Positions 23,854 to 42,370 of a stretch of DNA of 47,737 nucleotides are shown one piece after another. The stretch is from Nitrospira sp. bin75 (lineage in GTDB: Bacteria > Nitrospirota > Nitrospiria > Nitrospirales > UBA8639). Below the pieces are notes generated by a model. That model was not told the origin of the DNA, searched no databases, and was given only the letters and a program-made list of their open reading frames with translations. The stretch spans positions 1 to 47,737 of the forward strand of contig MPMZ01000018.1 of assembly GCA_002238765.1 (NCBI GenBank), written 5' to 3'. A program made the translations under genes and the position numbers. Every line of letters begins with the position of its first letter. Position 1 is the stretch's first letter.

Positions 23854-25151
23854 CGTATCAATTCTTGATCCTGCCGCCGGAACAGGTCATAAGCCAGCGC
23901 CAGCAGAATCAGGCCGAACTCCAGGGGCCGGACCCACGCCGGCTGTTGGTATGGTTGCAGATCGCCGTCGTTCAGGTTGAGCCCGGTCACGTAGGCGAGA
24001 AAGACCGCGACGGAGGCCGTCCACGCGGAGACGCTCGTCGCGACCGCCGCGAATGGCAGCAGCCAGAGCAGGTACCACGGATTGATCACCGGCGAGGCCA
24101 TGAGGAACACGCCATAGAGCCAATCGCCACGCGGGACTTCACCTGCGCGAATTCGAGAATGTCGGACATAGTAGTGGCCCCAGAAGATACCGCACAACAG
24201 GCCTAGGACGAGTTTGGCCTCAAGCGGCCGCAAGACCGTCGTGAGCAGCCCGAATGCCGCCGAGTTGAACTCCCACTCCCGGGCAAAGACCAGCAGAGAC
24301 TCGAAGTCCGTCCCACCTTGCAGGACGAACGGGGCATACACCGCCGCCAGCGTCATGATGAAAAGAAACCAGGCCGCAAGGCCCGCGCCAACCAGCACCA
24401 ACGGCGCCAGCACCAGTGCGAATATCTTGGCCCCGACGGCCATCCCCAGGCAAACGGCGGCGCTCCGGCGATGGTCACGGATGAGCACGATCGCCGCCAG
24501 CAGCAGGCAGACACCAATGCCGTCCGGGTGCGCGGTAAAGGCGATCTCCTTAATGACCAGCGGACACCACGCGTAGAGCATGACATTCCCGGCCGGGGCC
24601 AAGCGCAGCAACAGCATGATGGTCGCAAGATCGACGACGATCAGGATCGACTGCAAGGCTGCGACGCTTCCCGGTTTCAACCAGTAGCCCAGCAGGAAGA
24701 CAATCTGCGTGACCGGGGCGTAGATGGTCGGCAATTCGGGATTGTTGATGCCGTCCAGAATTCCGTGAAACACCGTTGGAACGCCGGGGTCGGCGAAGAA
24801 CGCTTCAGGGGCGGCGCCGTAGGGTGTTCCGGTCGCGGCGAAACGGTAACCGTCCCACAAGTAACGATAGAAGTCGTCTTCGAAAAACGGCCCGCCTGCC
24901 AACCCGCAGATCCGGAAGACCACCGACCAGAAAATCAGGCGTTTGAGCGGGAAAGGTTCGTCACTCCCGCGGAAGTACAGATAGAGGCTGAAGACCGGCA
25001 GACTGGTCCACGCGACGAGAAGAAAAAACGCCGGGAGGTCGGGTTCGCCGGATCGCCGCGACAGAAAGGCAAGTGCGGCATACCCCAACGCACACCATAG
25101 ACCGACCGCGTCCACGTACCGGCACGCGCGCCCGTTTGTCATCGGTGTCAT
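23838..25151 (-). CDS. GT-C type membrane glycosyltransferase
   Basis: This 437-residue polytopic protein (about ten helices) carries the GT-C hallmark EDDFYRYLWDG (91-101) in the first external loop, with a preserved Asp pair. It resembles bacterial lipid-linked sugar mannosyltransferases and would use the polyprenyl-phosphate sugar made by the downstream family 2 enzyme. ATG at 25151 or 25142; both are possible. First gene of a tightly overlapping three-gene operon. It is divergent from the flavoprotein gene at 25247. Confidence 0.82.
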   Translation of the reverse strand: MTPMTNGRACRYVDAVGLWCALGYAALAFLSRRSGEPDLPAFFLLVAWTSLPVFSLYLYFRGSDEPFPLKRLIFWSVVFRICGLAGGPFFEDDFYRYLWDGYRFAATGTPYGAAPEAFFADPGVPTVFHGILDGINNPELPTIYAPVTQIVFLLGYWLKPGSVAALQSILIVVDLATIMLLLRLAPAGNVMLYAWCPLVIKEIAFTAHPDGIGVCLLLAAIVLIRDHRRSAAVCLGMAVGAKIFALVLAPLVLVGAGLAAWFLFIMTLAAVYAPFVLQGGTDFESLLVFAREWEFNSAAFGLLTTVLRPLEAKLVLGLLCGIFWGHYYVRHSRIRAGEVPRGDWLYGVFLMASPVINPWYLLWLLPFAAVATSVSAWTASVAVFLAYVTGLNLNDGDLQPYQQPAWVRPLEFGLILLALAYDLFRRQDQELIRCTRT

Positions 25152-25181
25152 CGATCATCAACCAATCGAGTGGTGACGGCA

Positions 25182-25210
25182 TTGTACATGGAAGGCGCTT
25201 CCGCTACCAT
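25182..25210 (+). promoter_or_regulatory. Promoter of the Mer-like flavoprotein gene
   Basis: TTGTAC at 25182-25187 and TACCAT at 25205-25210 have a 17-bp spacer. The gene starts at 25247, so the leader is about 30 nt without a strong ribosome site. Confidence 0.45.
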
Positions 25211-25246
25211 GCCCCATTATGATGACGAGTCGAAACGCGCAACGCC

Positions 25247-26683
25247 ATGACGCATGACGTCATCATCATCGGAGGAGGGTCCGCAGGGTATGCCGCGGCA
25301 CGTACGGCGCGTGATGCAGGCGCCGACGTCGGCATCATCGATCATGGGCCGTTGGGCGGGCTCTGCATCCTGCGCGGATGCATGCCGACCAAGGCGATCC
25401 TGCGCTCCTCCGACGTCATGTCGCTCATGACCCGTGCGGAAGAATTCGGGTTACAGCCGGTTTCCGCAAAAGCCGATCTCTCCGCCATCATCAATCGCAA
25501 GGCCCGTCTCATCGGCGAGTTTGCCAATGACCGCATCCACGCACTGAAGGATTCCCGTTTTACCTTATACGAGGAACGCGCCGAGTTCCTCTCTCCCCAC
25601 GAAATCCAGGCCGGTGCCCACAAGCTGAAGGCCAAGGCGTTTATCATTTCCACGGGGTCCGTAGTCTCCCATGTGCCGATTGCCGGACTCGAGGAAGCCG
25701 GATATCTCACCAGCGATGAAGCCCTGGAATTACGCGACATCCCTCAATCCATGATCGTACTCGGTGGCGGGCCCGTGGCATTGGAACTGGCTCAATTCTT
25801 TCAGCGTATCGGGACCCATGTCACGCTGATCCAGCGAAGCGCACACCTCATGTCGCAAGGCGATGAAGACTCGGCCCGTCCGGTGGAAGCGCGATTCCGG
25901 GAAGAGGGCATGACGGTGTTGACCAATACCCAACTGCATCGATTTACCCTGGACGGCACGAAAAAAACGGCGCACCTGACCCATGAAGGAAAGGAGATCA
26001 CCGTTTCCGCAGAGGTGATTCTCCAGGCCCTCGGGCGACGGTCCAACATCGACGGGTTGAAGCTCGAGTCTGCACGGGTCGAGGTTCGTCAAGGCAAGAT
26101 CGCGGTTGACGACACGATGCGGACCAGCCAGCCGCACATTTACGCCGTGGGTGACGTGAACGGGCTCCATGAAATCGTCCATATTGCAATCCAGCAAGGA
26201 GAGATTGCCGGGTGGAACGCCGTCCATCCCCGGTCCTCCCCTCGCCGATATGACGACCGTCTCAAAGCCCAGGTCGTCTTTACCGATCCCCAAATCGCCG
26301 GTGTCGGGTTAAGCGAAAAAGAATGCAGGAGCCGGAAGATTCCTTATCGTGTGGCTTCGTATCCGTTCGACGACCATGGAAAATCGTTGACGTTGGGTGA
26401 GACGCATGGTCACGTCAAACTTCTGGCATCACCGGCAACCGGTGAAATTTTGGGAGCCCATATCGTTGGGCCGGAAGCCGCGGAACTGATTCACGAGCTC
26501 ATTGCCGTCATGTATTACCATGGGACCGTCCACGATCTTGCCCTGATGCCCCATTATCACCCGACCCTTGCCGAGATCATCACGTATCCTGCCGAGGAAT
26601 TAGCCGACCGGCACAACTCCGGACCTACCATTCAAAGGACGGAAAATTCGACCGATCTTTCCACCGACGAAGTTCATCCGTGA
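25247..26683 (+). CDS. FAD-dependent pyridine nucleotide-disulfide oxidoreductase (Mer/Lpd family)
   Basis: The 478-residue protein has the N-terminal FAD-binding IIIGGGSAGYAAARTA, the redox motif GGLCILRGCMPTK with Cys40 and Cys45, the NAD(P)-binding LGGGPVALELAQFF and the second FAD motif YAVGDVNG. The dimerisation domain has the catalytic base in HYHPTLAEI. It lacks the N-terminal mercury-binding domain and C-terminal CysCys pair of mercuric reductase, so substrate is unknown; dihydrolipoamide or another disulfide is possible. It is followed 96 bp later by a TVP38 membrane protein and then a second flavoprotein of the same superfamily. Confidence 0.9.
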   Translation: MTHDVIIIGGGSAGYAAARTARDAGADVGIIDHGPLGGLCILRGCMPTKAILRSSDVMSLMTRAEEFGLQPVSAKADLSAIINRKARLIGEFANDRIHALKDSRFTLYEERAEFLSPHEIQAGAHKLKAKAFIISTGSVVSHVPIAGLEEAGYLTSDEALELRDIPQSMIVLGGGPVALELAQFFQRIGTHVTLIQRSAHLMSQGDEDSARPVEARFREEGMTVLTNTQLHRFTLDGTKKTAHLTHEGKEITVSAEVILQALGRRSNIDGLKLESARVEVRQGKIAVDDTMRTSQPHIYAVGDVNGLHEIVHIAIQQGEIAGWNAVHPRSSPRRYDDRLKAQVVFTDPQIAGVGLSEKECRSRKIPYRVASYPFDDHGKSLTLGETHGHVKLLASPATGEILGAHIVGPEAAELIHELIAVMYYHGTVHDLALMPHYHPTLAEIITYPAEELADRHNSGPTIQRTENSTDLSTDEVHP

Positions 26684-30736: not shown

Positions 30737-33700
30737 ATGGCTAATCCACCCTCGACCCGGTCTCCGAACCGTCTCATCCACGAAACAAGCCCCTACTTGC
30801 TGCAACACGCTCACAATCCCGTGGATTGGTATCCCTGGGGAGAGGAAGCTCTCCAACTCGCCAAGGACCAGGATAAACCCCTTCTCTTGTCTATCGGGTA
30901 TTCCGCCTGCCATTGGTGCCACGTTATGGAGCGGGAATCGTTTGAGAACGACGAGATCGCCACGCTCATGAATCGGCATTACGTCTGCGTCAAGGTCGAT
31001 CGTGAAGAACGCCCCGACCTTGATGAGATTTACATGCAAGCCACCATCGCCATGAATCAGGGGAACGGCGGCTGGCCCATGACGGTTTTTCTGACGCCTG
31101 ACCAACAACCGATCTTTGCGGGCACGTATTTTCCTCCGACAGACAAATGGGGCCGGCCCGGTTTCGGGACAGTTCTCAAAAAGATCGCCGAAGGCTGGGA
31201 ACACGATCGCGCGGCTATTACCGAAAGCGCCACGCGTTTTACCGACCGGTTGCAAACGGCCATGCGCGTCCCCGCTCCCATGACCGTCGGGCAACAGGAG
31301 CTTGACTCCGCGGTCGAGCAATTTTCAGCGGACTTTGACCCAATTTACGGCGGTTTCGGGCAAGCCCCCAAATTCCCGCCGGCCATCGGCCTCGCGTTTC
31401 TTCTCCGGCAATACCAACGGACCAGGACGGAACACGTCCTGCACATGGTTTGTAAAACGTTGGATGCCATGGCCGGCGGCGGCATGTACGACCATGTCGG
31501 GGGAGGATTCGCCCGGTATTCGACGGATGAACGCTGGCTGGTTCCCCACTTTGAAAAAATGCTCTACGACAACGCGTTACTCGCCAGGACGTATCTCGAA
31601 GCATTCCAGGTGACCGGCAACTCCGATTACAAGCGCGTGACCCGTGAAACTCTGGACTACGTCATTCGAGAGATGACGTCACCCGAAGGCGGCTATTATT
31701 CCGCCACGGATGCCGACTCGGAAGGCGTCGAAGGGAAATTCTTCGTGTGGGATCCCGAAGAAATCCGGGAAATCGCCCCATCGGAGCAGGACGCGGTTCG
31801 ATTCTGCACGTACTACGACATTACCGCTGACGGCAATTGGGAACACCACAGTATTCCCAACACCCCCCACACGCTCGAACAAACGGCCGAGAAACTTTCC
31901 TGTTCCCCGGACGAGCTTCGACAGACGATCGACCGGGTTAAGCCACTCGTGTACGACGCACGGCTGAAACGCGTGCCGCCGGGATTGGACGACAAAATCA
32001 TCACGGCCTGGAACGGGATGATGATCAGCGCCATGGCCGAGACGGCACGGGTCTTGAGACACGGCCCTTATTTGGAATCCGCTTGTCGCGCTGCGGACTT
32101 TCTGCTCAAGACGCTCTCCCGTCCAGATGAAGGACTGTATCGCACCTGCCGCGCAGGCAAAGCCCATCTCAACGCGTATCTGGAGGATTATGCCTATCTT
32201 ACAGAGGCACTCATCGACGTCTACGAAGCCGGCGGTGAGGAACGATACCTCACGGAGGCCGTGCGATTGGGTGAACGGCTGTTGAGCGATTTTCTGGACA
32301 AGAATCACGGTGGATTTTTTACAACGGCCAACGATCACGAGGCCCTCATCCTGCGAGGACGTGAAGGACCTGACGGCGCTACTCCGAGCGGCAACGCAGT
32401 GGCGGCCATGGCCTTGGCCCGCCTCTCTTTTCACCAGGATCGCGAAGATTTTCGAGAAGCCGCTACGCAGGCTATTCGGGCGTATGGACAACAGATCGGT
32501 CGAATACCCAGGGGATTTGCCAAAACCATCATGACGGCGGACTTCCTGTTGAACGGCCCGCTTGAATTGGCATTCGTCGGGGCGCCGGCCGACCCAGGGC
32601 GTGAGCCGTTGCTGGACGAGGTGGCCCGTCATTTCGTCCCCTATCGCATCATTGCACATGGCAGTTCCGATGACCCCGAGTCGCGGCATCCGCTTCTGAA
32701 GGGCAAGCATGCGGTCGAGGGGAAAGCAGCTTTATACGTGTGTCGAAACTATACGTGTCGTGCTCCTCTCACCGATCCGAAAGACGTTGCGCACGCCTTG
32801 ACCGACGCGCCACGTGAGGATTCGACGTCACGCACACTGGCCTCTCCGGGCATACCGGGAAGGGCCACCGCTCATGGCACGGCCGCCTACGTGTCCCGGA
32901 TCATGGCGGGTTCTTCCGACTCCGCGGCCCACGGCTATACAACCCTGGGTTCCACGGGCCTCACCAACTCCAGGATCGGGTTCGGCGGCTACAGAACGGG
33001 TGTGGATCAGGAAGACCACCGGGCCGCACTCATGAAAGCCATTCGGGATGGGTGCAACCTCATCGACACTTCCACGAACTATGCGGACGGTGACAGCGAG
33101 CGCCTGGTGGGGAGCGTCATCCAGGCGTTGCTCTCCCAAAAAGAGGTGACGCGTGACAACGTGATCGTCGTCTCCAAAATCGGCTACGTGCAGGGAAGAA
33201 ATCTCCAGCACGCCAAATCCAGAGAACAGGCCGGCCGCGCCTATCCCGACGTGGTCAAATACGGGGAAGATATCTGGCACTGCCTCCATCCCGAGTTTCT
33301 CGATGATCAACTGTCCGGTTCCCTCGATCGCCTTGGATTCGCCACGCTGGACGTCTGCCTCCTGCACAACCCCGAGTATTTCCTCTCCGATGCAAAGCAA
33401 CGCAAACTCATCGTCGACACGTCCACCCTGGACGAACTGCGAACCGAATTTTACCGTCGCATCGAGCAGGCGTTTGTCTATTTCGAGCAGCAGATCGATG
33501 CAGGTCGCATCCAATACTACGGAGTTTCATCCAACACGAGTACGGCCGGACCCGCCGACCCGGAAGCGACTTCGCTGTCGCACATGCTCGAAGCCGCCCA
33601 ACGGGCCGCCCGGCAGACCGGCAAATCCCATCATGGGTTTCGCGTGCTTCAATTGCCCATGAATCTTTTTGAGTCGGGAGCCTTGTTGACCGCGAATACC

Positions 33701-34414
33701 GGTCCGGGCCAGACGACCACCGTGCTGGAGTTCGCCCAAGCCCATCAGGTGGCGATCCTGGTCAACAGGCCACTCAATGCCATACCCGCTCGACAACGTG
33801 GCATGATACGACTGGCCGACCCCCGGTATGAACAAGTGGACACGCCCTTTGAGACGCAACACCAGGAAGTTGCGACGTTGGAAGAAACGTATCGGCAGGA
33901 ATTTGCTCCCCTGATCCCCTATGCGGGAAAGGGACTGGAACCCAGAGACTTCTTTTCCCTGGCTGACGAACTTCGCGATCTTCGATCACGAATCCATAAC
34001 CTGGAGCACTGGGATCAGATCGAATCGCAGATGATCGCACCGCACATCAATCAGGCTTTTCAGGCAGCCGCCAGACACCTGAGCCAGGAAAAAGCAACAG
34101 ACTGGGAAAATTGGCGGACCCGTTACATCTCCAAACTGCTTCTCTTACTCAAGATCGTTCGGCAAGAATCCGCCAGAAAAAGTGAACAACACCTGCAAGC
34201 GATCACCACCTCGCTCGATGGATTCCTTCCGGACGAGAAACGCGGCGAACCATTGTCCCGAAAGGCGCTGTGGAGTCTGACCAGCACTCCCGGCGTCACG
34301 TGTGTGCTGAACGGTATCCGTACGACAGGTTACGTTGAGGATTCTTTGACGATCCTCGGATGGGAACCCTTGCAAAATCCCCGATCAATCTTCGAGAACA
34401 TGCAGTCTCCATAA
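30737..34414 (+). CDS. DUF255 thioredoxin-like (YyaL) protein fused to an aldo-keto reductase
   Basis: This 1225-residue protein joins two enzymes. Residues about 1-690 are a complete YyaL/SPATA20-type protein: [15 protein letters not shown] (24-38), the CHWC thioredoxin motif with Cys58 and Cys61, [12 protein letters not shown], then the toroid domain with [20 protein letters not shown] and [12 protein letters not shown]. After a spacer an aldo-keto reductase begins near 732 ([18 protein letters not shown]) with the tetrad Asp777, Tyr782, Lys814 and His877. The last 200 residues include a helical, charged extension (about 1075-1150) before the terminal AKR helix. No stop or frameshift separates the parts. 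There is no ribosome site, consistent with a leaderless mRNA. Substrates are unknown. Confidence 0.9.
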
Positions 34415-37793: not shown

Positions 37794-38177
37794 TCAAGGC
37801 GAAAAACGGCGGGGCACGGCGGCTGCATGCGCGCGAATCCCGCCATCCTTGTGGCGCGCCCAATCCTTCAGCAACTCCCGATACGAACAGGACATGAAGA
37901 CCACTTCGTCACCCTCCACGTCTCTGGCGAAGTGGGTGATCTCTTCCCTGTGCCTGGCCTTGTCGTTTTCATCGACGAGCCTGCCGTCTTTCGGCCAGAC
38001 GGCCGGCTCGGCATAGAGATAAAAGAGGATCGGAGTCAGCCCGTCGTGCCCGCTTCTCCGGTTGTCGACTGCCGTCCGCAGGGCGAAGGCGTGTTTGACG
38101 AGTTGTGCCGCGTCAAGAAAGTCGTACAGGTCTCCGTTTTCCTGAAGCTTGTCCCGCACGCCTTCGTAGCCTTTCAT
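37794..38177 (-). CDS. C-terminal half of a PGN_0703-type putative restriction endonuclease (split gene)
   Basis: This 127-residue frame (MKGYEGVRDKLQENGDLYDF at the start, then FLDAAQLVKHAFALRT, ILFYLYAEPAVWP and GDEVVFMSCSYRELLKDW) looks like the second half of a nuclease of the PGN_0703 family. Its ATG at 38177 overlaps the TGA stop of the upstream half (ATGA). In intact relatives, as I remember them, the two parts are one chain. One extra G in the run of six just upstream would fuse them. Either this is a coupled two-subunit version or a frameshifted gene. Confidence 0.65.
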   Translation of the reverse strand: MKGYEGVRDKLQENGDLYDFLDAAQLVKHAFALRTAVDNRRSGHDGLTPILFYLYAEPAVWPKDGRLVDENDKARHREEITHFARDVEGDEVVFMSCSYRELLKDWARHKDGGIRAHAAAVPRRFSP

Positions 38178-38566
38178 AGCACCCCCCAGACCTCCCGCCA
38201 ATAGGCATCGCAAAAGGATGCTGCCTTCTTGCCACGGAACGGCTCGAACCGTTTGGACTCGATGCCGATGAGTGCCGACACCGTCGTCACGAGACAATCC
38301 AGCACGGGATGACGGCCACCGCTCCAGGGGAAGCGAACCGTCGCTTCGAGCGACAGCGAACGGGCAGGCCATACCACGCGGTCGCAATCCAGCAAGGGCG
38401 ATAGATCGCGAGGCCGGTTGAGGAAAAATCCGAAGGCATTGGCAGCCAAAGAAGCGGAGGATTCCGGGTTGTCGAACTTCCCGCTTGCGATCTCGTTGCC
38501 TGCCGCCGCGTTGAATATTCGTTCGATCTCTTGACTCGGAACGCCGAGCAGCCACCTGTCGGTCAT
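38174..38566 (-). CDS. N-terminal half of a PD-(D/E)XK nuclease (split gene)
   Basis: This 130-residue part carries the nuclease core: Asp90 in HPVLD and Glu103/Lys105 in GIESKRFEPF give the D-x12-ExK spacing of PD-(D/E)XK enzymes. The reading frame ends shortly after YWREVWG at a TGA that overlaps the next ATG. The ATG at 38566 has only a weak ribosome site and lies 19 bases after the upstream gene. It belongs to a three-cistron minus-strand operon that resembles a defence or restriction module. Confidence 0.65.
   Translation of the reverse strand: MTDRWLLGVPSQEIERIFNAAAGNEIASGKFDNPESSASLAANAFGFFLNRPRDLSPLLDCDRVVWPARSLSLEATVRFPWSGGRHPVLDCLVTTVSALIGIESKRFEPFRGKKAASFCDAYWREVWGVL
38182..38187 (-). 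other. Run of six G (coding strand) at the nuclease split
   Basis: The coding strand has six consecutive G between the TGT/TCT context and the overlapping stop and start. Reading in the -1 frame, or a length of seven, would join both halves of the nuclease into one chain. It is a candidate for a phase-variable tract, programmed frameshift or sequencing error. Confidence 0.6.
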
Positions 38567-39487: not shown

Positions 39488-40804
39488 TTAGTCTCCGTAT
39501 CGTCCTCGTCCGCCTGCGGCCTTGAGCAGCTTAACGATCCCGGTATGGCCCTCTGCTGCGGCCAAGTCTAGGGCCGTCAAGCCTAGTTCCTTGGCGTTGA
39601 CCTCTGCCCCGGCGGCCACGAGTACCTTGACGATCTCGGTGCGGCCCGCCATTGCGGCCATGTGGAGGGCCGTGCCGCCTGTGTTCGTCTTGGCGTTAAC
39701 CGCCGCGCCGTTGGCCACGAGTGCCTTGACTGTCGCGGTGTGATCCTTGAGTGCGGCCACATGGAGCGCCGTCACGCCTTGTTTACCCCCCTTGGCGTTG
39801 ACCGCCGCGCCGCTGGCTAGGAGTCGCTTGACCTTGTCGGTGTGGCCTTTGAATGCGGCTACGTGGAGAGCCGTTAAGCCGCCTTGATCCTCCTTGGCCG
39901 TGACCTCCGTCCCTGCGTTCCTGGCCGTCCGGCCGTCATTACTCTTGGCATTGACCGCCGCCCCGGCGGCCAGAAGGGCCTTGACGGTCTCGGTGTGGCC
40001 CTCTTGTGCGGCCAAGTCTAGGGCCGTCCGGCCCTCTCTATCCTTGGCGTCGACCGCAGCGCCAGCAGCCAGGAGTACCTTAACGATCTCGGTATGCCCC
40101 TCTTGCGCAGCATGGTGTAAGGCCGTCGAGCTGTCCTTGTCCTTTGTATGCACCTCAGTAGCGGCCCTCCGAAGTCGCGTGACAATTGCCGTTTGGCCAC
40201 GCGCGGCGGCCAAGTCCAGGGCAGTCTTGCCGATCTTGTCCGTGGCGTGGATATCGGCCCCAGCTTCTAGAAGTCGCATGACGATGGCCTCGTGGCCCCC
40301 TTCAGCAGCCCAGTGCAAGACGGTTAAGCCGTTCTTAGTCGCAGCATGGACATCGGCCCCAGCCTCCAAGAGTCGCATGACGATGGCCTCATGACCTTTG
40401 CTTGCGGCGTCTTGCAGAGCCGTCCCGCCGCCCATATTCGTGGCGTGGACATCGGCCCCGGCTTCCAGAAGTCGCATGACAATGGCCTCATGACCGCGGA
40501 GGGCTGCCAAGTGTAGGGCAGTGTTGCCGTGCCTGTCTGTGGCGTGGACATCGGCCCCGGCTTCCAGGAGTCGCATGACAATGGCCCTGTGACCCATAAA
40601 GTGAGTGACGGCCGTGTGCAAAGCAGTCGAGCCGAACTGATCTTTGGCGTTGACATCGGCGCCAGCCTCAAGAAGTCGTGTGACGGCTTCCATGTCGCCG
40701 CTATAGGCGGCCATGGGTAGATCCGTTAAGGCTTGGACTTCAGCGGCCTGTCCTGTGGCAAAGAGCAGAATGGCGATTACCGTGTGTGTGAGGAAGAATT
40801 TCAT
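39488..40804 (-). CDS. Secreted ankyrin-repeat protein
   Basis: The 438-residue protein begins with a signal peptide (1-25) and consists of about 12 full ankyrin repeats of 33 residues plus one shortened repeat. Repeats 2 to 5 share nearly identical cores (HEAIVMRLLEAGADVHATD), showing recent expansion, whereas repeats 7 to 12 follow a second pattern (LLAAGAAVNAK). The ninth repeat has lost about half its length (ARNAGTEVTAKEDQG). GAGGAGA precedes the ATG. Exported ankyrin proteins bind other proteins in the envelope; no partner is suggested by neighbours. Confidence 0.9.
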   Translation of the reverse strand: MKFFLTHTVIAILLFATGQAAEVQALTDLPMAAYSGDMEAVTRLLEAGADVNAKDQFGSTALHTAVTHFMGHRAIVMRLLEAGADVHATDRHGNTALHLAALRGHEAIVMRLLEAGADVHATNMGGGTALQDAASKGHEAIVMRLLEAGADVHAATKNGLTVLHWAAEGGHEAIVMRLLEAGADIHATDKIGKTALDLAAARGQTAIVTRLRRAATEVHTKDKDSSTALHHAAQEGHTEIVKVLLAAGAAVDAKDREGRTALDLAAQEGHTETVKALLAAGAAVNAKSNDGRTARNAGTEVTAKEDQGGLTALHVAAFKGHTDKVKRLLASGAAVNAKGGKQGVTALHVAALKDHTATVKALVANGAAVNAKTNTGGTALHMAAMAGRTEIVKVLVAAGAEVNAKELGLTALDLAAAEGHTGIVKLLKAAGGRGRYGD

Positions 40805-41653: not shown

Positions 41654-41765
41654 GTCTGTTTTTCCTCCCTGTTGCGACGGAATAATGTGAGATTCGATAC
41701 ACCAATCCTGGTCGGTAATTAGGGCGTTTCGTAACCAATGTGTGGTAGAAACGACGCATGGTTAT

Positions 41766-41955
41766 GGACCTGCCCCCGAAGTTGGTCCAGCTTCCATGCG
41801 ATTGTTCTGGCCTCGTGAGCTTGGCGCGCAAAGGCCCTCGGCGTCAAGGTTCCGAGCGCCGAGGGCGGCCGAGCGGTATTGTAGCCGTGCCTCCAACTTT
41901 CGATTCGGTCACTGGCGTCGTTCAGCGATAAGAACCAGGAGGCATTCAAGCACTC
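41766..41955 (-). pseudogene. Remnant of an IS3-family transposase (OrfB C-terminus) with terminal repeat
   Basis: On the minus strand ECLNASWFLSLNDASDRIESW and YNTARPPSALGTLTP match the C-terminal part of IS3-type OrfB. Upstream of ECLNASW the frame loses all similarity, so the DDE domain is missing. The end at 41766-41792, TGGACCTGCCCCCGAAG, resembles an IS3 terminus. The element is therefore a fragment. Confidence 0.75.
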
Positions 41956-42009
41956 GGCCAGCGCCCAAAGAAATGGACGACGCAGAGCGTCAAATTGCTC
42001 CCGGCGCAG

Positions 42010-42370
42010 ACTCGATTCCCAAATCGAGTCAGGCGGCCTGGTGAGCCCCAGCGAACCGGCCGCCGGTGCGGTTCCCGTGCATCGCCAGATGCGACGGGAA
42101 CGAGTCCGGCACCCTCGGCCCCAGCCGAGGTGCCGGGCGACCGGAAGACCAACGGCTCTGCCCCTAGGCAGAGCCGACGTGAGGCCAAGCCCCAGCGACG
42201 CCTCACGGGTTGGGCTGCTGCGCTGTCGCGGCACACGGGAGTGAGCCGTGACCAACCCCTGGGAGAGAGGAGCGTCCAGCGACGTGAACCCGAGTGAAGA
42301 TGAGGGTTCCCCGGGGGTTGGTCACGGCTGGCGACCCCTCGCCCAAGCCGGGACAGCGCAGCGGGGTGAA
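42010..42370 (+). ncRNA. Putative stand-alone HEARO/omega-RNA-like structured RNA
   Basis: Perfect helices fill this stretch: 42010-42017/42022-42029; 42032-42038/42058-42064 around GGTGAGCCCCAGCGAACC; 42071-42083/42088-42101; 42106-42119/42124-42136; 42153-42162/42167-42176; 42178-42185/42200-42207; a 16-bp helix 42244-42259/42314-42329. Helices 42217-42227/42352-42362 (11 bp, perfect) and 42210-42215/42341-42346 cross as a pseudoknot. The order hairpin, GGTGAGC...AGCGAAC stem, TTCCCG...CGGGAACGAGTCC recalls HEARO (omega) RNAs as I remember them. No IscB/IsrB gene follows. Strand is inferred from that layout. Confidence 0.45.

Follow-up and report, generated by a model that had tools for sequence, protein, structure and literature searches.

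The window, meaning the whole stretch of 47,737 nucleotides analysed here, carries on its minus strand a nuclease gene that is divided between two reading frames (Table 1). The upstream frame ends in ...TGG GGG GTG CTA TGA, with the TGA at 38176-38174, and the downstream frame runs through the junction as CTG GGG GGT GCT ATG. Reading both frames confirms the −1 relation proposed in the first-pass annotation, and the six-G run and the overlapping stop and start that it described are both present. The products of the two halves align to consecutive stretches of P0003, the intact paralogue, which is a single chain. This protein and the one-frame homologues bear out the earlier view of a single chain in two halves. 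The conserved residues D91, E104 and K106 (P0003 numbering), presumed to form the active site, are retained in the 5′ half, and the conserved Q-L-x-K-H stretch sits in the 3′ half.

Table 1. Features of the split nuclease locus and its surroundings (positions in the window)
Feature	Position	Strand	Remarks
5′ half of nuclease gene	38174-38566	−	ATG at 38566, 130 codons, then TGA ending at 38174
3′ half of nuclease gene	37794-38177	−	−1 frame; ATG 38177-38175; open to 37794
Six-G run of the coding strand	38182-38187	−	Six C on the plus strand
ATGA, overlap of 5′-half stop and 3′-half ATG	38174-38177	−	Encodes an internal Met conserved in the family
Shine-Dalgarno-like GGGAGGT upstream of junction ATG	38190-38196	−	−11.0 kcal/mol to the anti-Shine-Dalgarno sequence
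Partner gene, 262 aa	38586-39374	−	Directly upstream of the nuclease gene; uninterrupted; no Pfam family at cut-off
Block duplicated on contig C33 (26295-33103)	37793-42828		Nuclease, partner, ankyrin-repeat gene, transposase remnant

The partner protein is 63-69% identical to its copy on contig C33, which also lies directly upstream of a nuclease gene. In 9 of the 60 homologous loci a relative of the partner precedes the nuclease, clearly in five (L012, L017, L020, L021 and L025) and weakly in four (L030, L032, L062 and L064); the other loci have different neighbours at this position or none of at least 80 aa. Judged from gene order, the nuclease and its partner may form a two-gene module. 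Another genome from this genus (G009:C1:439370-439572, L073) retains a remnant of the partner N-terminus. The ankyrin-repeat gene is a single 438-aa ORF in the window (39488-40804), with a repeat spacing of 99 nt, and is spread over several ORFs on C33 (L005 8000-10966). Elsewhere in the window, a 1225-aa ORF (30737-34414) presumably joins a thioredoxin-domain (DUF255-like) part to an aldo-keto reductase-like part, as judged by reading. No tRNA was found in the window.

Homologues, the intact paralogue and the predicted fold

A contig scan of genomes returned 60 homologous loci. They include near-identical members with equal scores and junctions (for example L026/L027 and L048-L050) and do not represent 60 independent cases. 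The junction is read in one frame in all 60, mostly as W-G-x-x-M, and the longest G run found there is five. A single tblastn stretch covers the match in 59 loci. In the remaining one, L025, the frame changes at residue 70, and L028 carries a stop codon at residue 5. In the sequences compared, other breaks in the family are sporadic. Homologues always encoded as two genes, the finding that would have counted against the first-pass annotation, are not seen; in the compared loci they are encoded as one. Conservation and branch changes were counted on 56 loci, leaving out the frame-shifted L025 and the partial L066, L070 and L071. The junction Met is present in 55 of these 56, and is on this alignment an internal residue and not an ancestral start.

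Matches in plasmids comprise two records, each in one piece over 97% of the query, and a search of viral contigs gave no relative. Within the phylum, a search at 1e-20 gave a match in only 2 of 395 genomes, this one and G009. This rarity suggests that the nuclease family was acquired from elsewhere.

A search of the organism's own genome (3.04 Mb, 115 contigs) revealed the second nuclease copy on the minus strand of C33 (26296-27063) as a single uninterrupted ORF. The two copies share about 85% DNA identity, and at the protein level the 3′ half matches the C-terminal half of P0003 with 88-90% identity. The junction sequence is TGG GGG GAT GAC ATG on C33, compared with TGG GGG GTG CTA TGA in the window. 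Both copies have the six-G run, and C33 is longer by one base between the run and the ATG. Since the run is shared and the difference lies after it, the G-run itself need not be the source of the missing base. The first-pass annotation had reasoned that seven G would give the fused state. The arithmetic is correct, but the paralogue has six G followed by A, and the homologous loci have at most five G in 60 of 60 cases.

The duplicated block has 77-86% DNA identity in its main pieces. Its homology stops one base beyond the nuclease stop codon, and a phage-type integrase gene (24873-26141) lies beside the C33 copy. A short remnant elsewhere in this genome (C60:1896-1942, L075) encodes 15 residues around the nuclease E-x-K, with the K changed to N.

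The intact paralogue matches the Pfam family PF22558 (REase-ARP) over residues 29-237 with 27.6 bits, a marginal score at a cut-off of 27. The 5′ half from the window reaches 22.3, which is under the cut-off, and the 3′ half alone gives no match to this family. The first-pass assignment to the PGN_0703 type is unconfirmed, with no NCBIfam family matching P0003 or the pieces of the window nuclease, and Pfam giving REase-ARP instead. A literature search on PGN_0703 or 'restriction endonuclease' did not return the name PGN_0703 in the portions of text available, and a search for 'REase-ARP' gave no match. PADLOC reported a single weak match of the 3′ half to Cas10b (E 0.041), which we took as chance.

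No PDB entry matched by sequence below E 0.6. A structure model was obtained for the homologue L020, not for the window protein itself, from an alignment of 35 of the 60 loci (pLDDT 95.9). In this model the break would fall in a loop between the helices 122-125 and 134-145. It splits the core fold, with the D and E-x-K before the break and Q-x-x-K-H and two strands after it; the D and the E-S-K are invariant among the aligned homologues. The best PDB match of the model has a Z of 7.6 and an rmsd of 3.7 over 132 aligned residues; the tool advises caution for Z values under 8. The best Foldseek E was 5e-3, and none reached 0.001. The PDB matches R.BspD6I, AF1548, Can2, McrC and FokI presumably share the PD-(D/E)XK fold, and the model is suggestive of a PD-(D/E)XK-like nuclease.

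Selection and the age of the break

Both nuclease halves show the signature of purifying selection in the comparison of the paralogues (dN 0.103, dS 0.346 and dN/dS 0.30 for the 5′ half; dN 0.058, dS 0.323 and dN/dS 0.18 for the 3′ half). The corresponding values for the partner gene are dN 0.202 and dS 0.578. Using 11 outgroups of at least 55% identity each, 17 amino-acid changes were assigned to the window branch and 12 to the C33 branch, with 3 left unassigned, where about 96 would be expected on a neutral branch. The neutral share of the window branch comes to 0.06 (range 0 to 0.18; upper value 22.5% if the three unassigned changes are added), in a calculation that presumes equal branch lengths and does not use branch-specific synonymous rates. 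With so low a possible neutral share, the break would be young, or an error, or both halves would still matter. Four highly conserved residues are altered in the window copy (A40, P57, P60 and S120; Pro57 is conserved in 56 of 56 homologues) and two in the C33 copy (G9 and F46). Neither nuclease half contains a second lesion.

We consider it probable that the locus reflects a recent one-base frameshift in one member of a pair of PD-(D/E)XK-like nuclease paralogues. The homologues support a frameshift pseudogene, because all 60 loci and C33 run through the break in one frame. The sporadic breaks in the family, the four altered conserved residues, the decay around the locus and the passage of the break through the core fold also speak for it. 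The genome has two paralogous copies, of which the one in the window would have lost a single base somewhere from the start of the six-G run to the conserved Met codon. The ribosome would then leave the full chain unfinished at the junction TGA, with the C-terminal half in the other frame. The loss would be recent compared with the divergence of the paralogues, and the window gene is most likely a frameshift pseudogene that is young and has no other damage, with the intact C33 copy as a buffer. We infer that the organism really lacks this base and that the gene product does not work. An ATGA overlap is an unremarkable outcome of such a loss: when single-base losses were simulated in the intact copy, 112 of the 739 counted gave one. 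Three observations sit less easily with a recent frameshift: both halves are free of further lesions, a base-call error fits the selection data equally well, and the strong Shine-Dalgarno-like stretch at the junction ATG would suit a working two-chain gene.

Alternative explanations and known systems

The first-pass annotation had also listed an assembly error. A sequencing or assembly error, with a base dropped beside the G-run of a gene that is undamaged in the organism, appears unlikely, though it deserves serious consideration. The lesion is single, both halves are conserved and the context is a homopolymer, all of which would suit an error. Against it, eight of the nine six-long G/C runs in the listed ORFs sit in uninterrupted frames, judged by ORF reading, and no further split pairs were noticed on reading the window ORFs of at least 200 aa. 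The uninterrupted ORFs at the other runs argue against a systematic homopolymer error, yet not against a single one. Sequence in decay is found nearby, as the ankyrin-repeat gene in several ORFs on C33 and a transposase end (rve_3) at 41719-42255, and the nuclease remnant on C60 is 47 nt long. This decay and the eight other G/C six-runs in uninterrupted ORFs lead us to favour a real indel over an error.

It is improbable that the split gene is in use, with termination and reinitiation at the ATGA, aided by the GGGAGGT/GGGGGG stretch, and assembly of the halves into a two-chain nuclease. Coupled translation had been raised in the first-pass annotation, and the ATGA overlap and an unusually strong Shine-Dalgarno-like stretch speak for it, but the gene is split here in none of the 60 homologous loci. 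The energy at the junction ATG is −11.0 kcal/mol at a spacing of 11, or −10.0 at 9, and this spacing is long. Among the internal ATGs of 24 window ORFs, none of 210 in frame and 2 of 443 in any frame are equally strong, and the same Met position is weaker in all 62 compared copies. The best of these is the paralogue, and this one-chain gene already has −9.3 kcal/mol at the same Met. The GGGAGG part is absent from C33; it includes a codon for Glu in the window, at a position that is Pro or Asp in most homologues. The conservation of both halves and the position of the break in a loop of the L020 model would also suit coupled halves. On the other side stand the alteration of four highly conserved residues and the fact that this test was picked after the site had been seen. 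A two-chain enzyme is conceivable from the model, although none of the relatives found uses one. A freshly split, coupled two-gene nuclease, born of a one-base loss at a loop next to the strong Shine-Dalgarno-like stretch and still working in a cell that also has the intact one-chain paralogue for comparison, receives, if anything, slightly less credence from us.

The first-pass annotation was right that one chain is split by a change of frame; its proposals of phase variation and programmed frameshifting are not supported. The junction carries neither a conserved shift signal nor a long phase-variable tract, as far as the sequences tell, because the 60 loci are read in one frame with at most five G and the ATG encodes a conserved internal Met. 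Phase variation, by which slipped-strand mispairing on the G-run would toggle the fused chain on and off, could draw on the run at the junction and on a frame that a one-base change would restore, but we regard it as very improbable: the run is only six G long, the paralogue has six as well and reads through them normally, and the window holds 17 G/C runs of at least six in its 47,737 bases. A Gly GGG codon inside a G-run is able to re-pair after a −1 slip, as programmed −1 ribosomal frameshifting or transcriptional slippage to the full chain would demand, but this reading is scarcely credible, as no slippery site is conserved across the 60 loci, the zero frame TGG GGG GTG lacks a tandem X-XXY-YYZ heptamer, and C33 reads the same run straight. 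The downstream RNA fold looks ordinary (z-score −1.49, with 18 of 200 shuffles folding as well).

As it stands, the locus is of minor importance, since it holds either a base-call error or a young frameshift in one member of a paralogous pair. If the halves were made and did assemble, it would have captured an early step from a one-chain enzyme to a two-subunit enzyme. The case also indicates that relatives should be compared before recoding is proposed for a homopolymer with an ATGA overlap.

Among known systems, the L020 model matches several PD-(D/E)XK enzymes over both halves, but with a Z under 8 and a Foldseek E of only 5e-3 the relation would be distant and by fold only. The intact paralogue marginally passes as a member of the Pfam family REase-ARP, named for a restriction endonuclease associating with ARP, whereas the window copy is broken. 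Programmed −1 frameshifting operates in dnaX and in IS transposases. The window gene resembles these in having two frames in a −1 relation at a homopolymer; unlike them, it has no conserved site or slippery heptamer, and its relatives are read in one frame. According to the available part of the GeneTack survey, recoding clusters have a conserved position and motif, and unclustered validated frame breaks are attributed mainly to sequencing errors or recent indels (PMC3711429). For this locus the two points agree. The locus is like the frameshift pseudogenes and singleton frameshifts described there, with one validated break, no recoding motif and intact homologues. It differs from them in that its break would be very young and is accompanied by a Shine-Dalgarno-like stretch and an ATGA.
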